A stretch of DNA of 64,000 nt, from positions 2,728,001-2,792,000 of the forward strand of contig VSJF01000003.1 in NCBI GenBank assembly GCA_009739215.1. The letters run 5' to 3'. This DNA is from Floccularia luteovirens. Its lineage: Eukaryota; Basidiomycota; Agaricomycetes; Agaricales; Squamanitaceae. Shown piece by piece: positions 18,899 to 41,198 of this stretch. Within the stretch, counting starts at the first letter, position 1, and each line of letters opens with the position of its first letter. Made by a program: the position numbers and the translations under genes. Below the pieces are notes generated by a model that was given only the letters and a program-made list of their open reading frames with translations, was not told the DNA's origin and made no database searches.

Positions 18899-20457
18899 AT
18901 GTTCAGACACTTTGCAAAGCATGGAATCCCAACATCTCGCTACAAATCATATACCATAGCAAGCAGTGTATTACTCGGGACCTCTTATGCCGGTTACCAA
19001 CTGAGGACCATACGTCTCGAAGCTCAACCCAAGGAAAAGACCACTCCGAACCTCGGCTTTCCCCCTGTTCTTAATACTCCAGGACAGTTTACAGAAGCCG
19101 CTCTTTATCAATATGCAGATTCCTTCATATACGATGCCCAGCAAGGATTTGGGATAGCTCAATGTGATTCTGTAGGCATTCCAAGGTACGTACCATCATA
19201 TAGACGAAAGTAAACAACTTAAAAGAACAAACTTGAAAGCAACAATCCGAGCGAAGATAGGATGTTTTCTGGCCACTACGCTTTGCCGACACACAACTGG
19301 GTATTCTTTGCCATCTTCGACGGACATAACGGGTGCTTCACCAGTCGATTCCTTTCGAATAACTTGGTACACGCTCTCATTGGTTCATTGGCCGATCTTT
19401 TTTCAAAACACCTGCCCATCTCTGATGAACACTCCGAGCTTGGGACCACAATTTACTCAGGGAGGCCATATCCTCCTCCAGACGAAATCGACCAAACTAT
19501 AAAGGACACATTTCTTCGTGTTGACAATGATATTGTCAATGAGGCTGTAGAACGCGTTTTCTCGAGTCCCTCAAGGGAGGCTGCAACCAGTCTGTTGGAG
19601 ACAACCCATGCTGGCTCGTGCGCTCTCGTTAGTTTCTATGAATGTGATTCAAAGGTCCTCCGAGTTGCTCTAACAGGTGATTCGCGTGCTGTCCTTGGTC
19701 GACGTACAGTTACCCCAACTGGAAAGGAAGAGTACGAGGTTCACGTCTTGTCTAATGATCAGAACGCGCACAACGTAGAGGAAGAATCTCGGATGAACGC
19801 AGAGCATCCTGGAGAAAAGATTATGGAAAAGGGTCGTGTTCTTGGATGGGGAATGTCTCGTGCCTTTGGTGATGCAGCTCTCAAGTGGAGTATTGAGGTA
19901 CAAGAACGGCTTCATAGAGAATACCTTGGTGATCGTCCACGTCCCTATGTCAAAACTCCCCCATATTTCACTGCTGAGCCTGTAATCACCACAACTCAGG
20001 TGTGCTCGGGAGATTTTTTAATCATGGCTTCGGATGGTCTGTGGGATAGTCTCACTAATGAAGAAGCAGTTGGTCTTGTGGGGACATGGCTCACGGTAAA
20101 CACTGTTGGGGATTCGATGCGTCGTAAAACGCAGCGTGCCATCTCTGACGATTCGAATTCGAGTTCAATTTTGGAACGTGAGGAGCTGCCGGTGCAACTG
20201 AAAGAGGATAAAACACCCATGTACAAGTGGTGGCGTACGGAGAAAAGGTTTATCAATGTGGACAATAACGTTGCGGTTCATCTGGCACGCAATGCTCTTG
20301 GAGGCGCTGATAGGGATCTGACCGCTGCGCTGCTTAACCTGCAGGCACCCAGATCACGGCGTTACAGGTATGTGATATTAGTAACCTATTGTCCTTGAAA
20401 CCTAATATTATTTGTCCCAGGGATGATATCAGTGTCCAAGTCATATTTTTCGAATAA
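18899..20457 (+). CDS. PP2C-type protein phosphatase, mitochondrial (pyruvate dehydrogenase phosphatase-like)
   Basis: Three coding exons. The N-terminus MFRHFAKHGIPTSRYKSY plus a hydrophobic stretch (TIASSVLLGTSYAGYQL) resembles a mitochondrial presequence with a membrane anchor. The PP2C core follows: VFFAIFDGHNG (metal-binding motif), THAGSCALVSFY, LTGDSRAVLGRR, WGMSRAFGDAALKW, GDFLIMASDGLWDSLTNEE, and a last exon RDDISVQVIFFE carrying the C-terminal metal-binding Asp. The second Gly of the usual DGHxGG is absent (DGHNGC), as in several fungal Ptc5/PDP-like proteins. The expected role is Mg/Mn-dependent removal of Ser/Thr phosphate, most plausibly from the pyruvate dehydrogenase E1 alpha subunit in mitochondria; the substrate is inferred from family likeness. 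The frame is intact. Confidence 0.85.
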
Positions 20458-20646: not shown

Positions 20647-20946
20647 TTATGCATCTGCTGCAGCTGCGCACGTGAAAATAACACTCTGATGGTAGGTCAG
20701 TTTTGAGCATTGTTTGATGTTGATATGATCTGCTTTCACCTCTATTGATCCTACTGCCGCACCTTATCAAGATATGTGAATCGGGCTATATTAGATACTT
20801 TATAAAGCTGGGAACTTACAAGGGTCCGCCAATATACCATTAAGTTGTGGCGATCTCTCGACGTTGACAGGTCTGGCCAAAACATCTTGGCTTGCCATGG
20901 TGAAAAGCAATGTGAGGAAGATGGTCGGAGTACCCAACCTAAACAT
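20647..20946 (-). CDS. Small secreted peptide precursor, family copy A
   Basis: The first exon (20820-20946, 127 nt) encodes a signal peptide (MFRLGTPTIFLTLLFTMASQ), a short pro-region ending VNVER, then SPQLNGILADP. The intron (GTAAGT donor, acceptor at 20763) interrupts a Cys codon (T|GT), and exon 2 continues CAAVGSIEV before a less certain tail and a stop at 20647 (80 aa if there are no further introns). The first exons of copies B and C have exactly the same length, the same intron phase and the core PQxNGxLAxPC. This suggests a secreted precursor cleaved after the Arg at residue 31. I do not recognise the family. No CaaX box is present, so it is not a standard basidiomycete mating pheromone. 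The tail beyond GSIEV is uncertain. Confidence 0.65.
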
Positions 20947-21039
20947 TGGGTTTGAATGAACGATGTCAAACTTGATATTCGGGTGAATGAGTTGCTAGGA
21001 CGTTGAGGTGGAAGGGGAATACGGTTCAATTTCCCGCTC

Positions 21040-21045
21040 TTTATA
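21040..21045 (-). promoter_or_regulatory. TATA-like box of peptide copy A
   Basis: TATAAA on the minus strand, about 95 bp upstream of the copy A ATG. The other two family copies have a TATA-like element at nearly the same distance. Confidence 0.5.
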
Positions 21046-21684
21046 TGTAACACCCTCTTCCACCTATCAAAGTGATTTCCGTCATAAGAATGGAACTTGA
21101 GGTTTGTACAGTTACGGGCTATACTTTATATGTGCAGACTAAGTACGCACTATGTAGAGTTATTGACGTTTATTATTGGGCAGCAAGAATGAAGTTTAGA
21201 AGTTCGTCGGGATGGCGTAATAAGCCATGGACGTTGCCGCATTTAATGGACTTAATGCCTATTAGTTCTGAAAATAATATATAACTTGACTTGTAATTGA
21301 AGTTCTCGCTGCGGCGAGACCAAGAAAATCATACTTATCCTCCACCGGGACCGCCTAATCTCCATCATAGTGGCAACATTTGATGTGGGCTTGTGAGTTC
21401 CCAGTGAGATGTCCATAAAATCTAATAACCAATCTTACGAATCTCGTATTATTGGTGTAAAAGTCCAAGAAACAAAAATTAAATTTTGTAGCAACAGTAA
21501 AAAACAAATGTCTGTGTTTCGATCAGGGTATTATGGGAAAAAAAGTCTCTTCCTCCTCGCGAACATCCTGCCTCGATACATCTATAGAAAATCTCATCTA
21601 CTTCCTCTCCTGTTCAGTATTTATACTTCACAACCTGTATACACTCAATATTAGCAACGGTCTTCCCATTGATGATTTTTATTC

Positions 21685-22043
21685 TTAGTACTCACGGTGA
21701 CGATAACTTCCAAGTTGAGAGATATCAACCTGAATCGGCAGGAGGAGGGCAAGCAAAGAGAAAGGACTGGTCAAGAAAGAAACAATGTTGAACCCCCATT
21801 TTAATTTTCTAAAATGAAAATAAATATCCCGACTTACAGCGATGGAACCAGGGCCTGGTATTCAGAATGAGTTGGTTAAATAGTGTTCATAGTCATACGA
21901 AAATAGGGAGACTCACAAGGATCTGCTAGTGCTCCATTTGCTTGAGGAGCTCTTGGAGCAAATATATAACGTGCAGATGTTTCTTGGCTAAGGTATGCGA
22001 GAAGCAATGCAAGGGCGAAGAGCACGGTTGTCAACCTAAACAT
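21685..22043 (-). CDS. Small secreted peptide precursor, family copy B
   Basis: Three exons (21917-22043, 127 nt; 21838-21854, 17 nt; 21685-21729, 45 nt) give 62 aa. The signal peptide MFRLTTVLFALALLLAYLSQ is followed by ETSARYIFAPR, then APQANGALADP, the Cys split by intron 1 (T|GC), PGSIA, and a final exon VDISQLGSYRHREY. Intron 1 has donor GTGAGT; intron 2 has donor GTAAGT. The pre-Cys part aligns without gaps to copies A and C (Cys at residue 43 in all three). The predicted mature peptide starts at the Ala or Ser after Arg31. Copies A and B run in the same direction; B and C are divergent. The function is unknown. Confidence 0.7.
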
Positions 22044-22146
22044 TTGTGTAGTGTGATTTGCAAAAGAGTGGGGTGGAAGTAAGTTGCAGGCTGTTACGAG
22101 TACTAAAAGTTTTTCCTATGCTGAATTGCGATTTTGTGATCCCTTT

Positions 22147-22152
22147 CTTATA
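22147..22152 (-). promoter_or_regulatory. TATA-like box of peptide copy B
   Basis: TATAAG on the minus strand, about 105 bp upstream of the copy B ATG, matching the spacing in copies A and C. Confidence 0.4.
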
Positions 22153-22720
22153 GCATTTCCTATGAGAACTTAAACGCCTGTCATGCCAGAACCATAACTT
22201 GATTAATTAATCCCACCGAGCAACGTCAGAAGCCGGATTTGTTACCAGATCATTAAACTATACCCATTGCATGATTCTATTGCGATCAATGGTTCGTCAG
22301 TGGGAATGGATATAGAAGTCGGAGAACAAAATAGCTTGGATGGTAACTAACGTTTGAGGTTTTTGGTTTGCTGGTAAGCGGTGATTGAACGGGAGAGGGG
22401 TGCATCTGTCCTCAGAATACTGCATTGGCACAATAAGTGGAGTATGCCGGAATATATCAGAACTTGCCGAAATGATAGTGTCTTTGCTAAGTTAAATATA
22501 GTACATATATGTATCACTGACGCAATTTAAATTGATAATCTGTGGCTTTCAGAATGTTCGTTATTTTCAGACACACACTCACCACCGACCACAAACACCA
22601 AAAAAAAGGAAGCTTGGCATTTTCTTAAGCCCACAGTTTTACCGCTAGATTCCATTTCAAATGTATAGGAATATTCTAATGATTCGAAAAACAGAAGAAT
22701 CTCTCCCTCCCTTGAAGCAG

Positions 22721-22726
22721 TATAAA
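22721..22726 (+). promoter_or_regulatory. TATA box of peptide copy C
   Basis: TATAAA about 100 bp upstream of the copy C ATG at 22824, the same spacing as in copies A and B. Confidence 0.55.
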
Positions 22727-22823
22727 TTCTTGCGGTTGTGGATGTTCCAAAAAACATTAACAGTCTCATCCTAAGCCTACCAAGTCTTTCACTAAAATCC
22801 CCCATCTATATCTCTATCCAACT

Positions 22824-23037
22824 ATGATGTACAAATTGACCAATGCTCTCCTTGCTCTTGCTTTGTTCTCTGCATTCGTTGGTCAAGAAGCATTAGCTAG
22901 TCCTGTCGACAAGCGGTCTCCACAAGCTAATGGCACTCTGGCACCACCCTGTATGTCTCTGTCTCCTTCTTAATTCTAATATTCACTTTTTTTTTTCTAC
23001 AGGTGGCTCTGTGGCCGTAAATTCCAGACCTTTCTAA
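22824..23037 (+). CDS. Small secreted peptide precursor, family copy C
   Basis: Two exons (22824-22950, 127 nt; 23003-23037, 35 nt) give 53 aa. The signal peptide MMYKLTNALLALALFSAFVG is followed by QEALASPVDKR, a classic Kex2 dibasic site. The predicted mature peptide starts SPQANGTLAPPC (Cys split by the intron, T|GT) and ends GSVAVNSRPF, about 22 residues. The start was taken at the first of two adjacent ATGs because that makes exon 1 exactly 127 nt, like copies A and B. GTAAAT after GSVA sits where copy B has its second intron, so a longer spliced form is possible. The family and receptor are unknown. This is the best-defined member. Confidence 0.75.
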
Positions 23038-24061
23038 TAAGTGGAGTGTAATAACCTGACAACTTATACTTATTCTAGGGCTTCTTATTCCGTTGCCCAC
23101 CTCCCCCCTCTGCTGCCGATACCTGAGCTATCGTTTTGTTCCTTGGAAGACGATGGATTTTGGGTGTGTTATTCTTCGGCAGTGATCCCATGTATCAACT
23201 TGCTAAATTCCTTAGTTCTTGTAGCTGACAGAGAAGAATGATTGTCGGATACGGAGATCGTAGATACCACTTAGTGACACTCACTAAACACATTCTTTAC
23301 CTCACAACTTGAACTAGAAAAATTATATTTTAATGTCATTTTCGAAAAGGCTTGGAAGTAAGTTGAAGTGAACATTCATAGGCGGTGTTTATGCGATTGT
23401 TTGATGTTCTGATCAACTTGCTTTACATGTCAATGGAAGTGTGAATCTCTTCCGAGTCTCTTCTAGAGCTGGTGCTAATTAATTGCTGGCGAGTAAATGT
23501 TTAATAGAACAAGGGTAGCTAACGTAATGTTTTTACCTTATCCGGCCTGCCTTGAGCAGATACACAAAAGGTCCCGCCGAAAGCTGGTCACTTGGATCAT
23601 CGATTGTTCAAGAGTGTATCGTTTACTTGATAAGTAACCAAAATCACAATAGTTTTGCAAGAGGTTGATGTGATAAGGGTTGGCGTTCTGCGTACCGGTT
23701 ACCAATAAGTCGACATCTCGAGTTGTAGCATTGGATCGATCTCTTGGCTGATGATAGCCAAGTGGATATCATAATACGTGTAAGGAACTGGAGTGTTTAG
23801 GAAACGTCTGCGCCCTATGAGGTCAATAATAGTCGACTTCCTAACTGGATCATTTACCTGATATAACAAAAGATTAAGAATATACTTTAGGGCATGTGTT
23901 ATAGGCATGGCCTAGGTCATAGGGCATAGTGTCGGTCATAAGCCACAGAGTCATTCAAATAAGGGGCTACCACGTCTGATAGTTGAACAGAAGACTCCCC
24001 ACCCAGGTGTGTGCAATGCTTGTATCCATTCCGGTTTTAATGAACCCAGCCCATCAAGATC
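23038..24061. other. Intergenic region
   Basis: A 1-kb AT-rich spacer between peptide copy C and the F-box gene. The open frames at 23041-23241 (+) and 23699-23908 (-) carry no recognisable motif. I searched it by eye for a fourth PQxNG peptide copy and saw none. Confidence 0.5.
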
Positions 24062-25316
24062 ATGGCAACGACGCAATGCGTGGATATAGGACCTTTCCCG
24101 ATGGAAATAATCGACCTTCTTATGGATGATGTGGCTGAGGTGGGAGGGCAGGCAGCGCTCATTGCTTGTACGCGTGTGTCCCGAAACTTTTACATCTCAT
24201 GCCAGCGCAAAGTCTATCGGAAAGTTTTCATTCAGCATCATCATAACCAAAGCAATCTTGCCAATTTCCATCGTTTGCTTGTTTCATCACCCTACGTCCA
24301 AGATTACGTCCAAGAAATAGACTTTGGATTTCATACAAGTAACGATGATGAGGAAAGCTGTCTCCGATATCAGACGAACTTGGCAACAATTCTCCGTTTG
24401 CTCCCCCGCCTTACTTCTTTGGCACTGAAATTCACCTGTTCAGGACAACTCATGGATTGGTCTAAATTTCCGGAGGATCTTAAATCTGGAATCCTTGCAA
24501 CTTTCGGTCTTCCTACGATGAAGAGTGTGGCTCTTCACGGAATAGAACATTTTCCACAGGATGTCCTCGAGTCATTGGTATGTCATTTGGAACATCTAGA
24601 GCTGAAGGACGTCACACCTGCAGCCTCGACTCCACACAGCAACCGGGTTCGACCGAAATTGGCATCACTAGCCCTGCTTGGAAGAAGCAGTATGAGTGCA
24701 CTCGTGATTGCCCGGACTATCGCCGCTACACACCTACAAACCCTGCGTACGTTAATCATTTCTCCGTCCCGAAAAGACAATCTAGCTGCAGCAGGGTGGT
24801 ACCTTGCAGGATTGGTATCTGCTAACTTGACACATTTTGAATGGAGGCCGGTGCATGACAATTGTGAGGAAAGGCATGTTTTTGCAAGGCCCGAAAAGTT
24901 AATGTGACACCCTCGGCCCTGTTCATCCAGCATTTAGCACCTTCATGGGGCCCCACATTCCGGACTATTTCAGACGATTCCCAAATCTGTCAAGCATCAC
25001 ACTGGAATTTCCTTCTTTGAGCGTAATTGCTATCACAGAAGTCGCCGCATTGCTCATGAGGCTGCGTTCGAAGAATGCTATTCGCACTTTGACTATCCGA
25101 TACGAGTCAGCGTGTGTATCTTTGGGGACATATAATGGCCCTGAGTGGCAATATATTGACAGGATCGTCACTGCGCCGCAGTATGCACTGGAACATTTCG
25201 TATTTGAGCTCTCCAGTAGGAGTGGGGTCTCGGAGGAGATGAGAAGACGTGAAGAGGAGTTGATCGACCGTTATTTACCACTATTGAAGCAGAGAGGCGT
25301 TCTTGGTTATCGTTAG
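24062..25316 (+). pseudogene. F-box-like protein gene with one frame break
   Basis: The N-terminal part starts MATTQCVDIGPFPMEIIDLL and continues IACTRVSRNFYISCQRKVYR, which fits the divergent F-box plus linker found in the very large Agaricomycete F-box families (substrate adaptors of SCF ubiquitin ligases). A weak LRR-like region follows (LPRLTSLALKF; LEHLELKD; LQTLRTLIIS). The frame stops at 24907 (TTAATGTGA), but one base away it continues CDTLGPVHPAFSTFMGPHIP, then DYFRRFPNLSSITLEFPS, to 25316, in the same style. A single extra A or T near 24900-24904 explains this; no splice sites do. It is either a recent pseudogene or a base-call error. Nothing identifies the substrate. Confidence 0.6.
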
Positions 25317-33502: not shown

Positions 33503-35220
33503 TCAAAGCTGCCGGGTGAAACACTGGATTTCTTCAATTTGAATTTGTGAGCTCGGATTTTCTGTACGATCAGCCAGGGAGATGGAACCTGTATTGGTGT
33601 CACCCGCCAAGTTTCTTCCCATTCCCTCCATTTTTCCTGCATCCTTCCGCTCCAGATTTGTAGCATGCATTGTAGTATGTGAACAAGCCGTATCTGTGGC
33701 GAGAGTTGCAGGAGCAAAATTCAACCTAGTCGCACACCGCTCCGTATGGTGTGGGAGGAAAAGTTGACGAACAGCTTTGACAAATGCCTGAAATGAATGA
33801 GTTTGGAGGATATATAGAAATCTTAAGTTGCACAAACCGGATCAGCTGCAGCCAGTATTCCATATGACAGTGTGCGAACTCCATAGATACAAAGGTCTGG
33901 AATAATGTTAGCTGGATTTTGGCGGTCATATCAACACTCCCACCAATAATAAGAATACGGAAGTCCTAGTGAGTGATATTTTAGCATCACCTGCAAAATG
34001 ATGGCTTGGAAGAACAAATAGCTACCGCTCTGGTATGTAGTCCCGCCATAATAGCGTCAAGGTCTAAGCCTACAGTTGTGCAGTTGAGGATGAGAGATAC
34101 GACTGGATACATGACTAGGAGGTATGTTAGTAGAATGGCATGCGTAATATCATGAGAGGAAGAGTAACCAATTCGTATAATGATCTGTCTATATTTGGCA
34201 TCCATCCTAACGAGTGTGCGTGGGTCGCTAAGTGGATTTCGTATAGTTTCACCAGGCTGGGCCGCATAATTAACACGGCTCAAATGGTTGATACGCTTCT
34301 ATTCGCATAAGCTGTTGTCAATAATGAATTGTAAGTCAAATGAATACTAAACTTACTTTGTAATTGTATAACCACACAAGAACTATGAATGAGGAAATGC
34401 ATTCGATAGTCGCAGCCAGGGCAATTGGAAAGGATAAGCTTGCGATTATCCAAGGGAGTTGAGCCCTTGGGTCAGAACCGGCGAACCAGCATGTCAGCTG
34501 GTTTTTATCCCAGCTGAAGTAAGTTAGATAGCTGTGAAATGACATTACGACTGTTCCTCACCCGAAGTGATGTAAAGCAGCGGTGGGTATGTTGAGAGCC
34601 ATACTGAGTAATATTGTGCCGCTAACATAATATTTCTCCATCCGTTTACCATTCAGACCATGAACCAAGACAAATCTAGTGGGAACAATGAGTAGAAACT
34701 TCCTGCAAACATAATTGAGACTTACTGTAAATTTATTGCAATACACGTGGTGAAGAAAGTTGAGAGAGTCAGAGCAATCTGTGATGTTATTATGAAAAGA
34801 GTGAACTCAGGATAGTGGATGCTCCGTTACATACGTTGACTACAAAAGCTTCAACTTGACAACCTACGCTAGGTTTTTCGGGGTTACTGAGATAGGCAAT
34901 GCCATACACAATACTGCGTTTTTGAGTTCTAATTTTGAGTCAAACCAGATTTTACTTACTTGGATATCAAAGCGTAATTGAGAAGACGAAAACTAACACG
35001 ATCCAACTCTTTTTTACTCCTTGCGAAGCATGCTACGATGCCACAGATCATAAGAACTAGAAAGCAAATGCAGATGCCGAGAATAGAAGGGGCTAATACT
35101 ATAAGGCGACTTTGAGCATACAATGCATCAGTCATGCGAAAAAAGCAGTCAGAGGTTTGAACCTTACATGTGGTTGTAATCGGCATATGTGGGTGTAAAG
35201 GAATCATTGGCGACAACCAT
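33503..35220 (-). CDS. 7TM receptor-like protein, array copy 3 (intact)
   Basis: The exons join in frame from MVVANDSFTPTYADYNHM to the C-terminus EIQCFTRQL. Family landmarks: TM1 IVLAPSILGICICFLVLMIC, ELDRVSFRLLNYALI, GIAYLSNPEKPSVGC, STFFTTCIAINLQFVLVHGL, NGKRMEKYYVSGTILLSM, NQLTCWFAGSDPRAQL, IECISSFIVLVWLYNY, MYPVVSLILNCTTVGLDL and YGVRTLSYGILAAADPAFVK. An in-frame ATG six bases upstream (35226) is possible; 35220 was chosen by alignment with copy 5. It is closest to copy 5, its duplicate (over most of its length), and more distant from copy 1. The ligand and coupling partner are unknown; a plasma-membrane location is expected. Confidence 0.8.
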
Positions 35221-38885: not shown

Positions 38886-41198
38886 TCATAGAGACATTTC
38901 AATGATTAATGTGACTAGTATACATCCTAGATGAGAAAGGGTTAATGCCAGAGGAAATGTCGGTAACTTCTTAAGGAAACTTGCCTTGATTTGTTCCGAG
39001 AATGCTTGTGCTAATGTCATTCGCTTGATTTTTTGTGCTGGCGTAACAAAACCATTTTCGGGTGTCCACTCATCGGGAGTTAAAATGACGGCAGCTAAAA
39101 GCTCCGATGACTTGAACCCATTTTTTCTACCTAAGGCATTGCATTCCTCAAGGATTAGATCTTGGACCCTCGAATCCTGACAAAGCGTTGCGAGCCCAAC
39201 ACCTTCAGTTGACATCTCCATAGAGTCGAGCATGTACCGCAGATTAGCTTCATGGGGGAAGATGATCGCCAAAGGTTGTTTTGCTTCAGGGCTTGCGTGT
39301 ACACAGAGGTTCATAACGTAGTCACAAGATTTGTAGATGGATTCTAGCCTTTCGAGCGCGATATATTCTCCATTTTGTAGTTTGACCAAGTTCTTGATTC
39401 TGTTCAGAAAGATAAGATGTTTTGTCATAAAAGAACCGATGACAAAAATTACCGATCAATCAGAGACATGGTCCCGTCTGGATTCCACTGTCCGATATCT
39501 CCTGTTCTCAGCCAGCCATCCTTGGTGAATATTGTCTCATCTTCATTGAGGTCAGGACGTTTGTAATACCCTTTCGTTACGGATGGTCCACGGATGCACA
39601 CTTCTCCTTGTGGTGGGTTATTCGATGATAGGTAACCTGATTCAGGGACATCAAGGAATTTGATCTCAACAGATGGTACTGGCAGACCGACAACTCCATA
39701 CTGCTGGAGTTCTGGAGGCAAAAGGGCACACATTCCGCATGACTCGGTCATTCCATACCCTGTGCATCTATATTGTGAGTGGATCAACATGTTTTACTAA
39801 GAGACATACCTTGCATCATTGGCATGAGCGCTAAACTCAGAAACTCTTGTGTATCTTTGCTGATCGCTGCTCCACCGTTCATTGCAAAACGCAGATTTCC
39901 CCCTGTCGCTGCGCGAACCTTGCTTAGCACGACTTTTTCGGCAATAGAGCCTAGAATGGGCATTCCAGACCTCTTCATCTCCATAGCTAAATTGAACATC
40001 GTCTGCTTCACGAGACCGCCAGAGTTTAGCTTGAGGGAGATTCCTTTCCGAACAGACTCCCAAACAGTGGGGACACCGAACATTACAGTTGGTTTAAAAG
40101 CGTTGAGGTCCCCCAAACAATTACGGACGGAAGCGTCTGTTAGAGTCTTGGGTCGTGCGTAGCCGGACGTTGATCCTACGTAGAGTCCGATCAACTCGAC
40201 GATAAATTCGAGAACGTGAGCAAGAGGAAGATATGCGAGATAGCGATCACCCATTCCAATGTGATTACCGAATACAATAGCGACTGAACCAATCGAGGCG
40301 ACGATATTGGAATGTGTAATGCACACCCCTTTTGGAGGGCCAGTGCTTCCGCTTGTATACATGATACATGCCATAGTATCTGTGGTGGGCCTGCGGGAGT
40401 GTATGATGTCAACTGATTGGGTCCTCCCCAAGGCCCTCAATTCTGTGAGACTCATGATTTTGATATTACCCCGAATAGCTCGGATGTCGTTAAGTACGGT
40501 TTCGGAAGGTTGTCCGTCATAAATAATAAACTTTACGGTAGGTGTTTGGGGCAGAACTTTAAGCACGGTTTGCAAAAGTTCTGAGTTTGTGAAGAGCCCG
40601 ACGCAATCTGGCTCGTTTAACGCATGTACGAGGCCTGATTCTCCAAGCGTGTCGTATGCAGTAGCAATAGGAGTTGAAATCATCAAGCACCCATGGGAAA
40701 TGAATTGCCAATTTTGACTGGAAATGACAAAATTGGTATAGCAGAGCATGCATTTGCAGGAACCGCTTACCTGGTCTGCGCATAGATATTGAACACATCA
40801 TCCGTCGTGATACCCAAAATAAGGAAAGCACGGGCGACTTCAGTTATGACCTCCTGAAATTCGATGAAGCTGAGATACTTGTATTCACTCAGCTCGAAGT
40901 ATTTCCAGGTCTTCGTTTCGGTCACCTCCTTTCCACCGACAACGGTTGTTACATCTTTCTTCTCTTCATGAACCTTTATAACATCCCGCCATGCTACTGC
41001 ACTCTTTGTGCCATATTTTTGTACGGCGTAGTCGACCACATCTGGAATGGTCTTGAAACCTTCCTTAGGATGTTTCACCAACTCTCCGGAAGTCACCGCA
41101 AGCCTGCGGATGCCCCCCTCTCCAGGAATGGCCGGAGAGATAACGACAGAACCGTCACCGAAATAACCAGCTCTCATAGCAGTACTCGTAGATGACAT
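38886..41198 (-). CDS. Long-chain fatty acid--CoA ligase
   Basis: Four coding exons encode an acyl-CoA synthetase of the Faa1/Faa4 (ACSL) type. It activates long-chain fatty acids with ATP to acyl-CoA via an acyl-adenylate. The start MSSTSTAMRAGYFGDGSVV at 41198 is preferred over an upstream non-ATG frame. Landmarks: HGCLMISTPIATAYDTLGES; the AMP-binding P-loop IMYTSGSTGPPKGVCITHSN; YLAYLPLAHVLEFIVELIGL; FGVPTVWESVRKGI; FAMNGGAAIS; YGMTESCGMCALL; GWLRTGDIGQWNPDGTMSLI; and IKNLVKLQNGEYIALERLES, which carries the linker. The C-terminus continues past the usual AQKIKR... region with a hydrophobic stretch (FPLALTLSHLGCILVTLIIE) that may be a tail anchor or a read-through of a lost splice site. 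Its 3' end was copied into the duplication at 35.6 kb. Confidence 0.88.

Follow-up and report, generated by a model that had tools for sequence, protein, structure and literature searches.

Three clustered paralogues of Floccularia luteovirens with conserved three-exon reading frames are candidate precursors of small disulfide-looped peptides

Introduction

Described fungal precursors close to the genes reported here include the KEX2-processed repeat proteins (KEPs) of Agaricomycetes, such as Coprinopsis cinerea KEP 497993 and 490115, which are secretory and are cleaved behind basic residues, even behind a single Arg (PMC9769878). That source describes Coprinopsis precursors expressed in Pichia that were cut after RR and apparently after a single Arg, with removal of X-A/X-P. 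It records pyro-Gln peptides in Coprinopsis itself and infers Ste13-type trimming for Pleurotus peptides (PMC9769878). It also reports that the kex knockouts tested still had the peptides, which leaves Kex2 dependence unproven in that work (PMC9769878). KEPs have an N-terminal signal peptide and carry several repeated cores, at least three in one published pipeline, flanked by KR, RR or KK sites, and published Ste13 signatures are often repeats (PMC6339444).

Ascomycete alpha-type pheromone precursors have a signal peptide and a repeated core after Kex2/Ste13 sites. Hydrophobins have eight Cys with two CC doublets, CS-alpha-beta defensins (plectasin, copsin) have six or more Cys, and MSDIN cycloamanide precursors start with MSDIN and have no signal peptide. 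Qsp1 is the quorum-sensing peptide of Cryptococcus neoformans, and we know of no disulfide-loop family for it. Basidiomycete mating pheromones are a-type, and a Trichosporon peptide that ends in PCW and has two conserved Cys has been likened to Sordariomycete alpha pheromones (PMC6339444). Pleurotus Ssp1 belongs to a multi-copy family of secreted proteins of ~18 kDa with no known domain (PMC7105643).

Here we describe three small genes, A, B and C, in a window of 64,000 nucleotides from Floccularia luteovirens. An initial annotation had read them as a family of tiny secreted precursors; we revise their structure and propose a route by which they could mature.

Results

We searched the whole genome (27.0 Mb, 22 contigs) with each first exon as query. 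Every query returned the other two copies, at E values of 7.3e-6 to 1.27e-3, so the homology claimed for the family holds beyond chance. Neither these queries nor a consensus found anything beyond A, B and C at E<=10, in searches that scored 3 candidates each time and whose copy counts are lower bounds. At the DNA level, gene C matched only itself in the genome at E<=0.001. In an hmmsearch scan with an exon 1 profile, no copy in the window besides A, B and C rose above the inclusion threshold (best remainder E 0.22, 33729-33965, minus strand).

Genes A and B lie on the minus strand and gene C on the plus strand, within positions 20647 to 23126 (Table 1); B and C are divergent, with start codons 780 bp apart. 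All three have the 127-nt first exon originally described, and in each a first-intron donor stands after the T of a Cys codon, as also described. Downstream of exon 1 the earlier models needed replacing: they overlooked a predicted second intron and third exon, and gene C runs to 23126, beyond 23037. The last residue of the GS[I/V]xV motif, taken for a conserved Val, is really encoded by the GT of the predicted second-intron donor. These donors sit at the same codon and in the same phase (phase 0) in A (GAG/GTGAAA), B (GCT/GTAAGT) and C (GCC/GTAAAT). Splicing at the shared GT would leave a microexon of 14-23 nt and then an exon 3 with the pattern [SG][FV][LI]FxC...AD; the acceptors chosen were CTGACCTACCATCAG in A, CTTGACCAG in B and CCTGAC...TTCTAG in C. 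Our own first models, which resembled the earlier ones, lacked the second intron in A (80 aa), placed the introns of B differently (63 aa) and ended C at 53 aa; we dropped them because the shared donor yields a much better three-way match in exon 3.

Table 1. Predicted gene structures and promoter motifs at the three loci (positions in the window)
Feature	Position	Strand	Content or basis
Gene A TATAAAG at -99	21039..21045	-	Motif; further TATA at -184
Gene A exon 1, 127 nt	20820..20946	-	Signal-like start, then pro-region and core as far as base 1 of Cys43
Gene A intron 1, 57 nt	20763..20819	-	GTAAGT...AAG; sequence-based model
Gene A microexon 2, 23 nt	20740..20762	-	C-AAVGSIE; splice model
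Gene A intron 2, 54 nt	20686..20739	-	GTGAAA...CTGAC...CAG; splice model
Gene A exon 3 with stop	20647..20685	-	SVIFTCAAAADA, stop; splice model and three-way exon 3 match
Gene B TATAAGA at -109	22146..22152	-	Motif
Gene B exon 1, 127 nt	21917..22043	-	Shared exon 1; genome-wide match
Gene B intron 1, 62 nt	21855..21916	-	GTGAGT...CAG; splice model
Gene B microexon 2, 17 nt	21838..21854	-	C-PGSIA; splice model
Gene B intron 2, 71 nt	21767..21837	-	GTAAGT...TTGACCAG; splice model
Gene B exon 3 with stop	21725..21766	-	SFLFACPPPADSG, stop; splice model and three-way exon 3 match
Gene C TATAAAT at -103	22721..22727	+	Motif; further TATA at -17
Gene C exon 1, 127 nt	22824..22950	+	Shared exon 1; genome-wide match
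Gene C intron 1, 52 nt	22951..23002	+	GTATGT...CTACAG; splice model
Gene C microexon 2, 14 nt	23003..23016	+	C-GSVA; splice model
Gene C intron 2, 62 nt	23017..23078	+	GTAAAT...CCTGAC...TTCTAG; splice model
Gene C exon 3 with stop	23079..23126	+	GFLFRCPPPPSAADT, stop; splice model and three-way exon 3 match

In gene A, the first-intron acceptor that keeps Cys43 is AAG; if splicing used instead the CAG at 20754, nine bases further on, exon 2 would shrink to 14 nt and Cys43 would become Leu. Intron 2 of gene A is in frame and free of stops, and its retention could yield a protein of 80 aa. In gene B, a GTGAGT at 21695 and an acceptor at 21635 (within 21621-21766, minus strand) could give another C terminus, unmatched in A and C.

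To assess exon 3, we kept the donors fixed, shuffled the DNA behind them while preserving dinucleotide content (n=2000), and considered every AG 40-120 nt past the donor that opened 6-40 codons ahead of a stop, scoring the best three-way ungapped match; the donor itself had been picked after inspecting the sequence. The observed three-way score was 89; the shuffles averaged 27.7 and peaked at 62, so that 0 of 2000 reached it. Pairwise scores were reached in 0/2000 (B/C), 2/2000 (A/B) and 230/2000 (A/C), the last of which marks gene A as the weakest member. Its donor, GTGAAA, is weak, its exon 3 resembles that of C only weakly, and its tail has AAA where the others have PPP.

The spliced precursors of A, B and C are predicted to be 62, 61 and 62 aa long. 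With the proposed cuts as hyphens, they read MFRLGTPTIFLTLLFTMASQDVLA-RPVNVER-SPQLNGILADPCAAVGSIESVIFTCAAAADA (A), MFRLTTVLFALALLLAYLSQETSA-RYIFAPR-APQANGALADPCPGSIASFLFACPPPADSG (B) and MMYKLTNALLALALFSAFVGQEALA-SPVDKR-SPQANGTLAPPCGSVAGFLFRCPPPPSAADT (C): a signal-like start, a pro-piece of 6-7 residues ending in Arg, and 30-31 residues with two cysteines that have 9-12 residues between them. The signal-like start, judged by eye and by hydropathy, is a hydrophobic stretch of 12 residues (mean Kyte-Doolittle 1.86, 2.82 and 2.62) with an AXA-like end. This layout supports the earlier view of secreted precursors whose pro-region ends in Arg.

Alignment of the precursors gives 19 invariant columns of 66, including R, P, Q, N, G and both Cys, and confirms that the core [SA]PQxNGxLAxPC and the Arg before it are common to all three. 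After the Arg, 17 of 29 aligned residues are identical between A and B, 14 of 28 between A and C, and 20 of 29 between B and C. The ungapped alignment claimed for the first 43 residues stands for A and B (22/43 identical); for C the agreement is a coincidence of length. Gene C has a second in-frame ATG at 22827, which fits the starts of A and B better, and its alignment improves when it is begun at this Met and the pro-region is gapped by one residue: residues 1-30 then share 9 and 12 identities with A and B, compared with 4 and 3 ungapped.

The residues ending at the invariant Arg31 are ER in A, PR in B and KR in C, so that the Lys-Arg noted earlier is indeed present, and is the only dibasic site at this position; no dibasic site lies 3' of the core in any of the three. 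The peptide of C had been put at about 22 residues, but our model gives 31 after Lys-Arg and 29 after removal of X-P. Each precursor has a single core without internal repeats, and the C termini (AADA, ADSG, AADT) have no CaaX box, as originally stated.

Side-chain net charges of the three peptides are -3, -2 and 0. The two-Cys loop with its hydrophobic FLF or VIF and the inferred secretion would suit membrane-active or, as suggested initially, antimicrobial peptides, but the peptides are not cationic, have too few cysteines for a CS-alpha-beta defensin and match no Pfam family, which makes this reading quite improbable and a classical cationic antimicrobial a poor fit. Signalling, another of the suggested roles, fits best in our judgment.

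A codon model over the 58 complete codons gave an omega of 0.15 (2dlnL 40.9 vs omega 1). The expectation that dN/dS between the copies would fall below 1 thus holds. Saturation at synonymous sites (pS 0.66-0.81) makes these values rough and also shows that the copies are old. By part, omega was 0.41 for the signal plus pro-region (2dlnL 5.2) and 0.03 for the mature part (51.7). Exon 1 alone gave 0.25 (18.1) and its 11 core codons 0.06 (15.2), both independent of the choice of exon 3; exons 2 and 3 gave 0.02 (26.3, 16 codons), where omega is biased down by their having been picked by similarity. Pairwise pN/pS was 0.57, 0.39 and 0.37 over exon 1 and 0.23-0.33 over the 11 core codons. The three loci are thus a family with conserved three-exon open frames and constraint at the codon level, and the estimates indicate purifying selection, strongest in the predicted mature part.

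Plain DNA identity is a weaker witness, as exons and introns are not sharply different by this measure. Relative to shuffled sequence, identity was 3-4 sd above in exon 1 and about 1.6-3.8 sd above in exon 3, and not above it over the 100 bases past the stop. Between A and B it was also raised in intron 1 (0.61 vs 0.50, sd 0.04) and intron 2 (0.48 vs 0.41, sd 0.03).

The pattern of constraint bears on two other readings. Fungal surface proteins with short pro-regions ending in basic residues occur, and the genes could encode small proteins of the surface or cell wall that are secreted and function intact, with the stretch up to the Arg serving simply as a short pro-piece. TATA-containing promoters and the PPP tails of B and C would suit such proteins, but there are no repeats and no eight-Cys hydrophobin pattern, and the short core adjoining the Arg is strongly constrained; we consider this improbable. 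Effector-like peptides acting on another organism (a plant, a bacterium or a competing fungus) are unlikely but more readily conceived. Their signal-like start, small size, cysteines and lack of a known domain would accord with a broad definition of small secreted proteins (PMC7105643), and the paralogues are clustered. Against this, the averaged codon fit points to strong purifying selection in the mature part, unlike typical arms-race effectors, and the copies in the genome (at least three) are few.

No Pfam or NCBIfam family matched the predicted precursors at E<=10. Among 5.8 billion proteins, the corrected models drew 28 word candidates, none at E<=10; an earlier search with wrong 3' ends drew 84, none at E<=1. 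As a control, the neighbouring PP2C gene found 3337 proteins at E<=1e-20 in the same set, and the 120 matches listed include several named Agaricales genera, so that annotated Agaricales proteins are present in the set. Absence from it does not mean absence from Agaricales genomes, because annotation can easily pass over a gene of 61 aa that has a microexon. A pattern search matched 10 stretches in viral contigs and 64 in prokaryote contigs, none of which was confirmed; this carries little weight because neither collection is described as fungal. Five motif strings gave no match among 5.39 million papers, and no family with this core was among the titles listed, from sources that mostly do not cover subscription journals. 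The family and protein searches are in line with the earlier statement that no named family has this core.

Two candidates were put aside. Our early models matched a mitochondrial ribosomal protein among solved structures (E 1.1, ~20 residues), which we took as chance. For the snowball gene, the text of PMC10949477 does not contain "signal peptide", and where it speaks of "small secreted" products it refers to other genes.

The lack of a relative in the collections searched would be expected of relics or chance open frames without a product. This is very improbable: the three frames have stayed open despite synonymous divergence at saturation, omega lies well under 1, the splice phases are common to all, and exon 3, which played no part in finding the family, agrees among them.

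The PP2C-type phosphatase gene (Pfam PF00481, 19262-20398, plus strand) is convergent with gene A, and its last exon, judged by eye, ends near 20457, ~190 bases from the gene A stop. Its best named matches are from Laccaria bicolor (64%) and Pleurotus ostreatus (61%), and related entries include some under the name pyruvate dehydrogenase phosphatase. Adjoining gene C, at 24062-25316 (plus strand), are two ORFs of 281 and 123 aa that look F-box/LRR-like by eye and have no Pfam match at E<=0.01. An exon of an AMP-binding enzyme (PF00501), perhaps a long-chain acyl-CoA synthetase, lies at 39784-40749 (minus strand).

Discussion

Our best explanation, which we hold with about as much belief as doubt, is that A, B and C are old, clustered paralogues whose three-exon genes encode secreted precursors of 61-62 aa for disulfide-looped signal peptides. 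In its favour are the mutual exon 1 matches, the exon 3 agreement, the invariant columns, the codon fits and TATA-like boxes at -99 (A), -109 (B) and -103 (C). Signal peptidase would cut after the shared Ala (VLA, TSA, ALA) and a Kex2-type protease after the invariant Arg31. A Ste13-type dipeptidyl peptidase would then take off Ser-Pro or Ala-Pro, and the exposed Gln would cyclise to pyroglutamate. A disulfide between the two cysteines would enclose a hydrophobic loop, C-(0 to 3 residues)-GS[IV]x[SG][FV][LI]Fx-C. Each precursor would thus yield one looped peptide of 28-29 residues, which most likely acts extracellularly and signals to the fungus that makes it. We infer each of these cleavages, the capping, the disulfide and the signalling role, along with transcription, splicing and secretion, and we judge signal over coat or kill from charge, constraint and analogy.

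By analogy with described precursors, the order R/[SA]P/Q fits a Kex2 cut, Ste13 trimming and pyroglutamate capping. Two features weigh against the route: a single Arg is a weaker Kex2 site and only C is dibasic there, and a lone X-P behind the cut marks Ste13 trimming only weakly. A kexin-like gene is present in the genome at C16:920672-922091, where P domain and S8 matches adjoin each other, and C19 carries a DPPIV-type N-domain match; these matches cross stop codons, presumably in introns. No plant-type glutaminyl cyclase was found in the genome; M28-type matches are present, by which cyclase and aminopeptidase are indistinguishable. Capping can also be spontaneous (PMC9769878).

The proposed peptides would share with KEPs a secretory route, cuts after basic residues including single Arg, X-A/X-P trimming and pyroglutamate-starting products (PMC9769878). 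KEPs have several repeated cores; here each of the three gene copies has a single core, two cysteines and a microexon. KR precedes the core in C alone, A having ER and B PR, and no dibasic site follows it in any copy. The two are set apart by description, and our protein-set searches gave no match. The genes fall outside the repeat definition yet, on paper, would work like a one-core KEP.

Like ascomycete alpha-type precursors, these would follow a signal peptide with Kex2 and Ste13 logic. They differ in having a single core without repeats, no PCW end, 28-31 residues and a basidiomycete host, and without a CaaX box they are not a-type lipopeptides either. Qsp1, cited in PMC10949477, is a secreted single signal peptide in a basidiomycete, a likeness we draw from its general biology. 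Pleurotus Ssp1 resembles the predicted precursors in being secreted, multi-copy and without a known domain, but its family is of ~18 kDa, compared with 61-62 aa here. Small secreted proteins in the broad sense have a signal peptide and fewer than 300 aa (PMC7105643); the present precursors are of such a size and, by eye and hydropathy, have a signal-like start. With two Cys after the Arg and no Pfam family at E<=10, the peptides are neither hydrophobins nor CS-alpha-beta defensins, and their hydrophobic signal-like N terminus, with no MSDIN, separates them from cycloamanide precursors.

Since the copies are old, relatives are predicted to exist in other species. The gene models give exact sequences and masses for peptide searches. 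For the disulfide-bonded peptides with pyroGlu, the calculated monoisotopic masses are 2771.315 (A), 2654.178 (B) and 2822.316 (C); for disulfide-bonded peptides released by the Arg cut alone, they are 2972.426, 2839.294 and 3023.427. A microexon precursor could escape routine gene calling, and a single core could escape repeat-based peptide surveys. As a tentative and still doubtful generalization, mushroom-forming fungi may have single-core, pyroglutamate-capped, disulfide-looped peptide hormones that use the Kex2/Ste13 route of alpha pheromones for purposes other than mating, hidden by their microexons.
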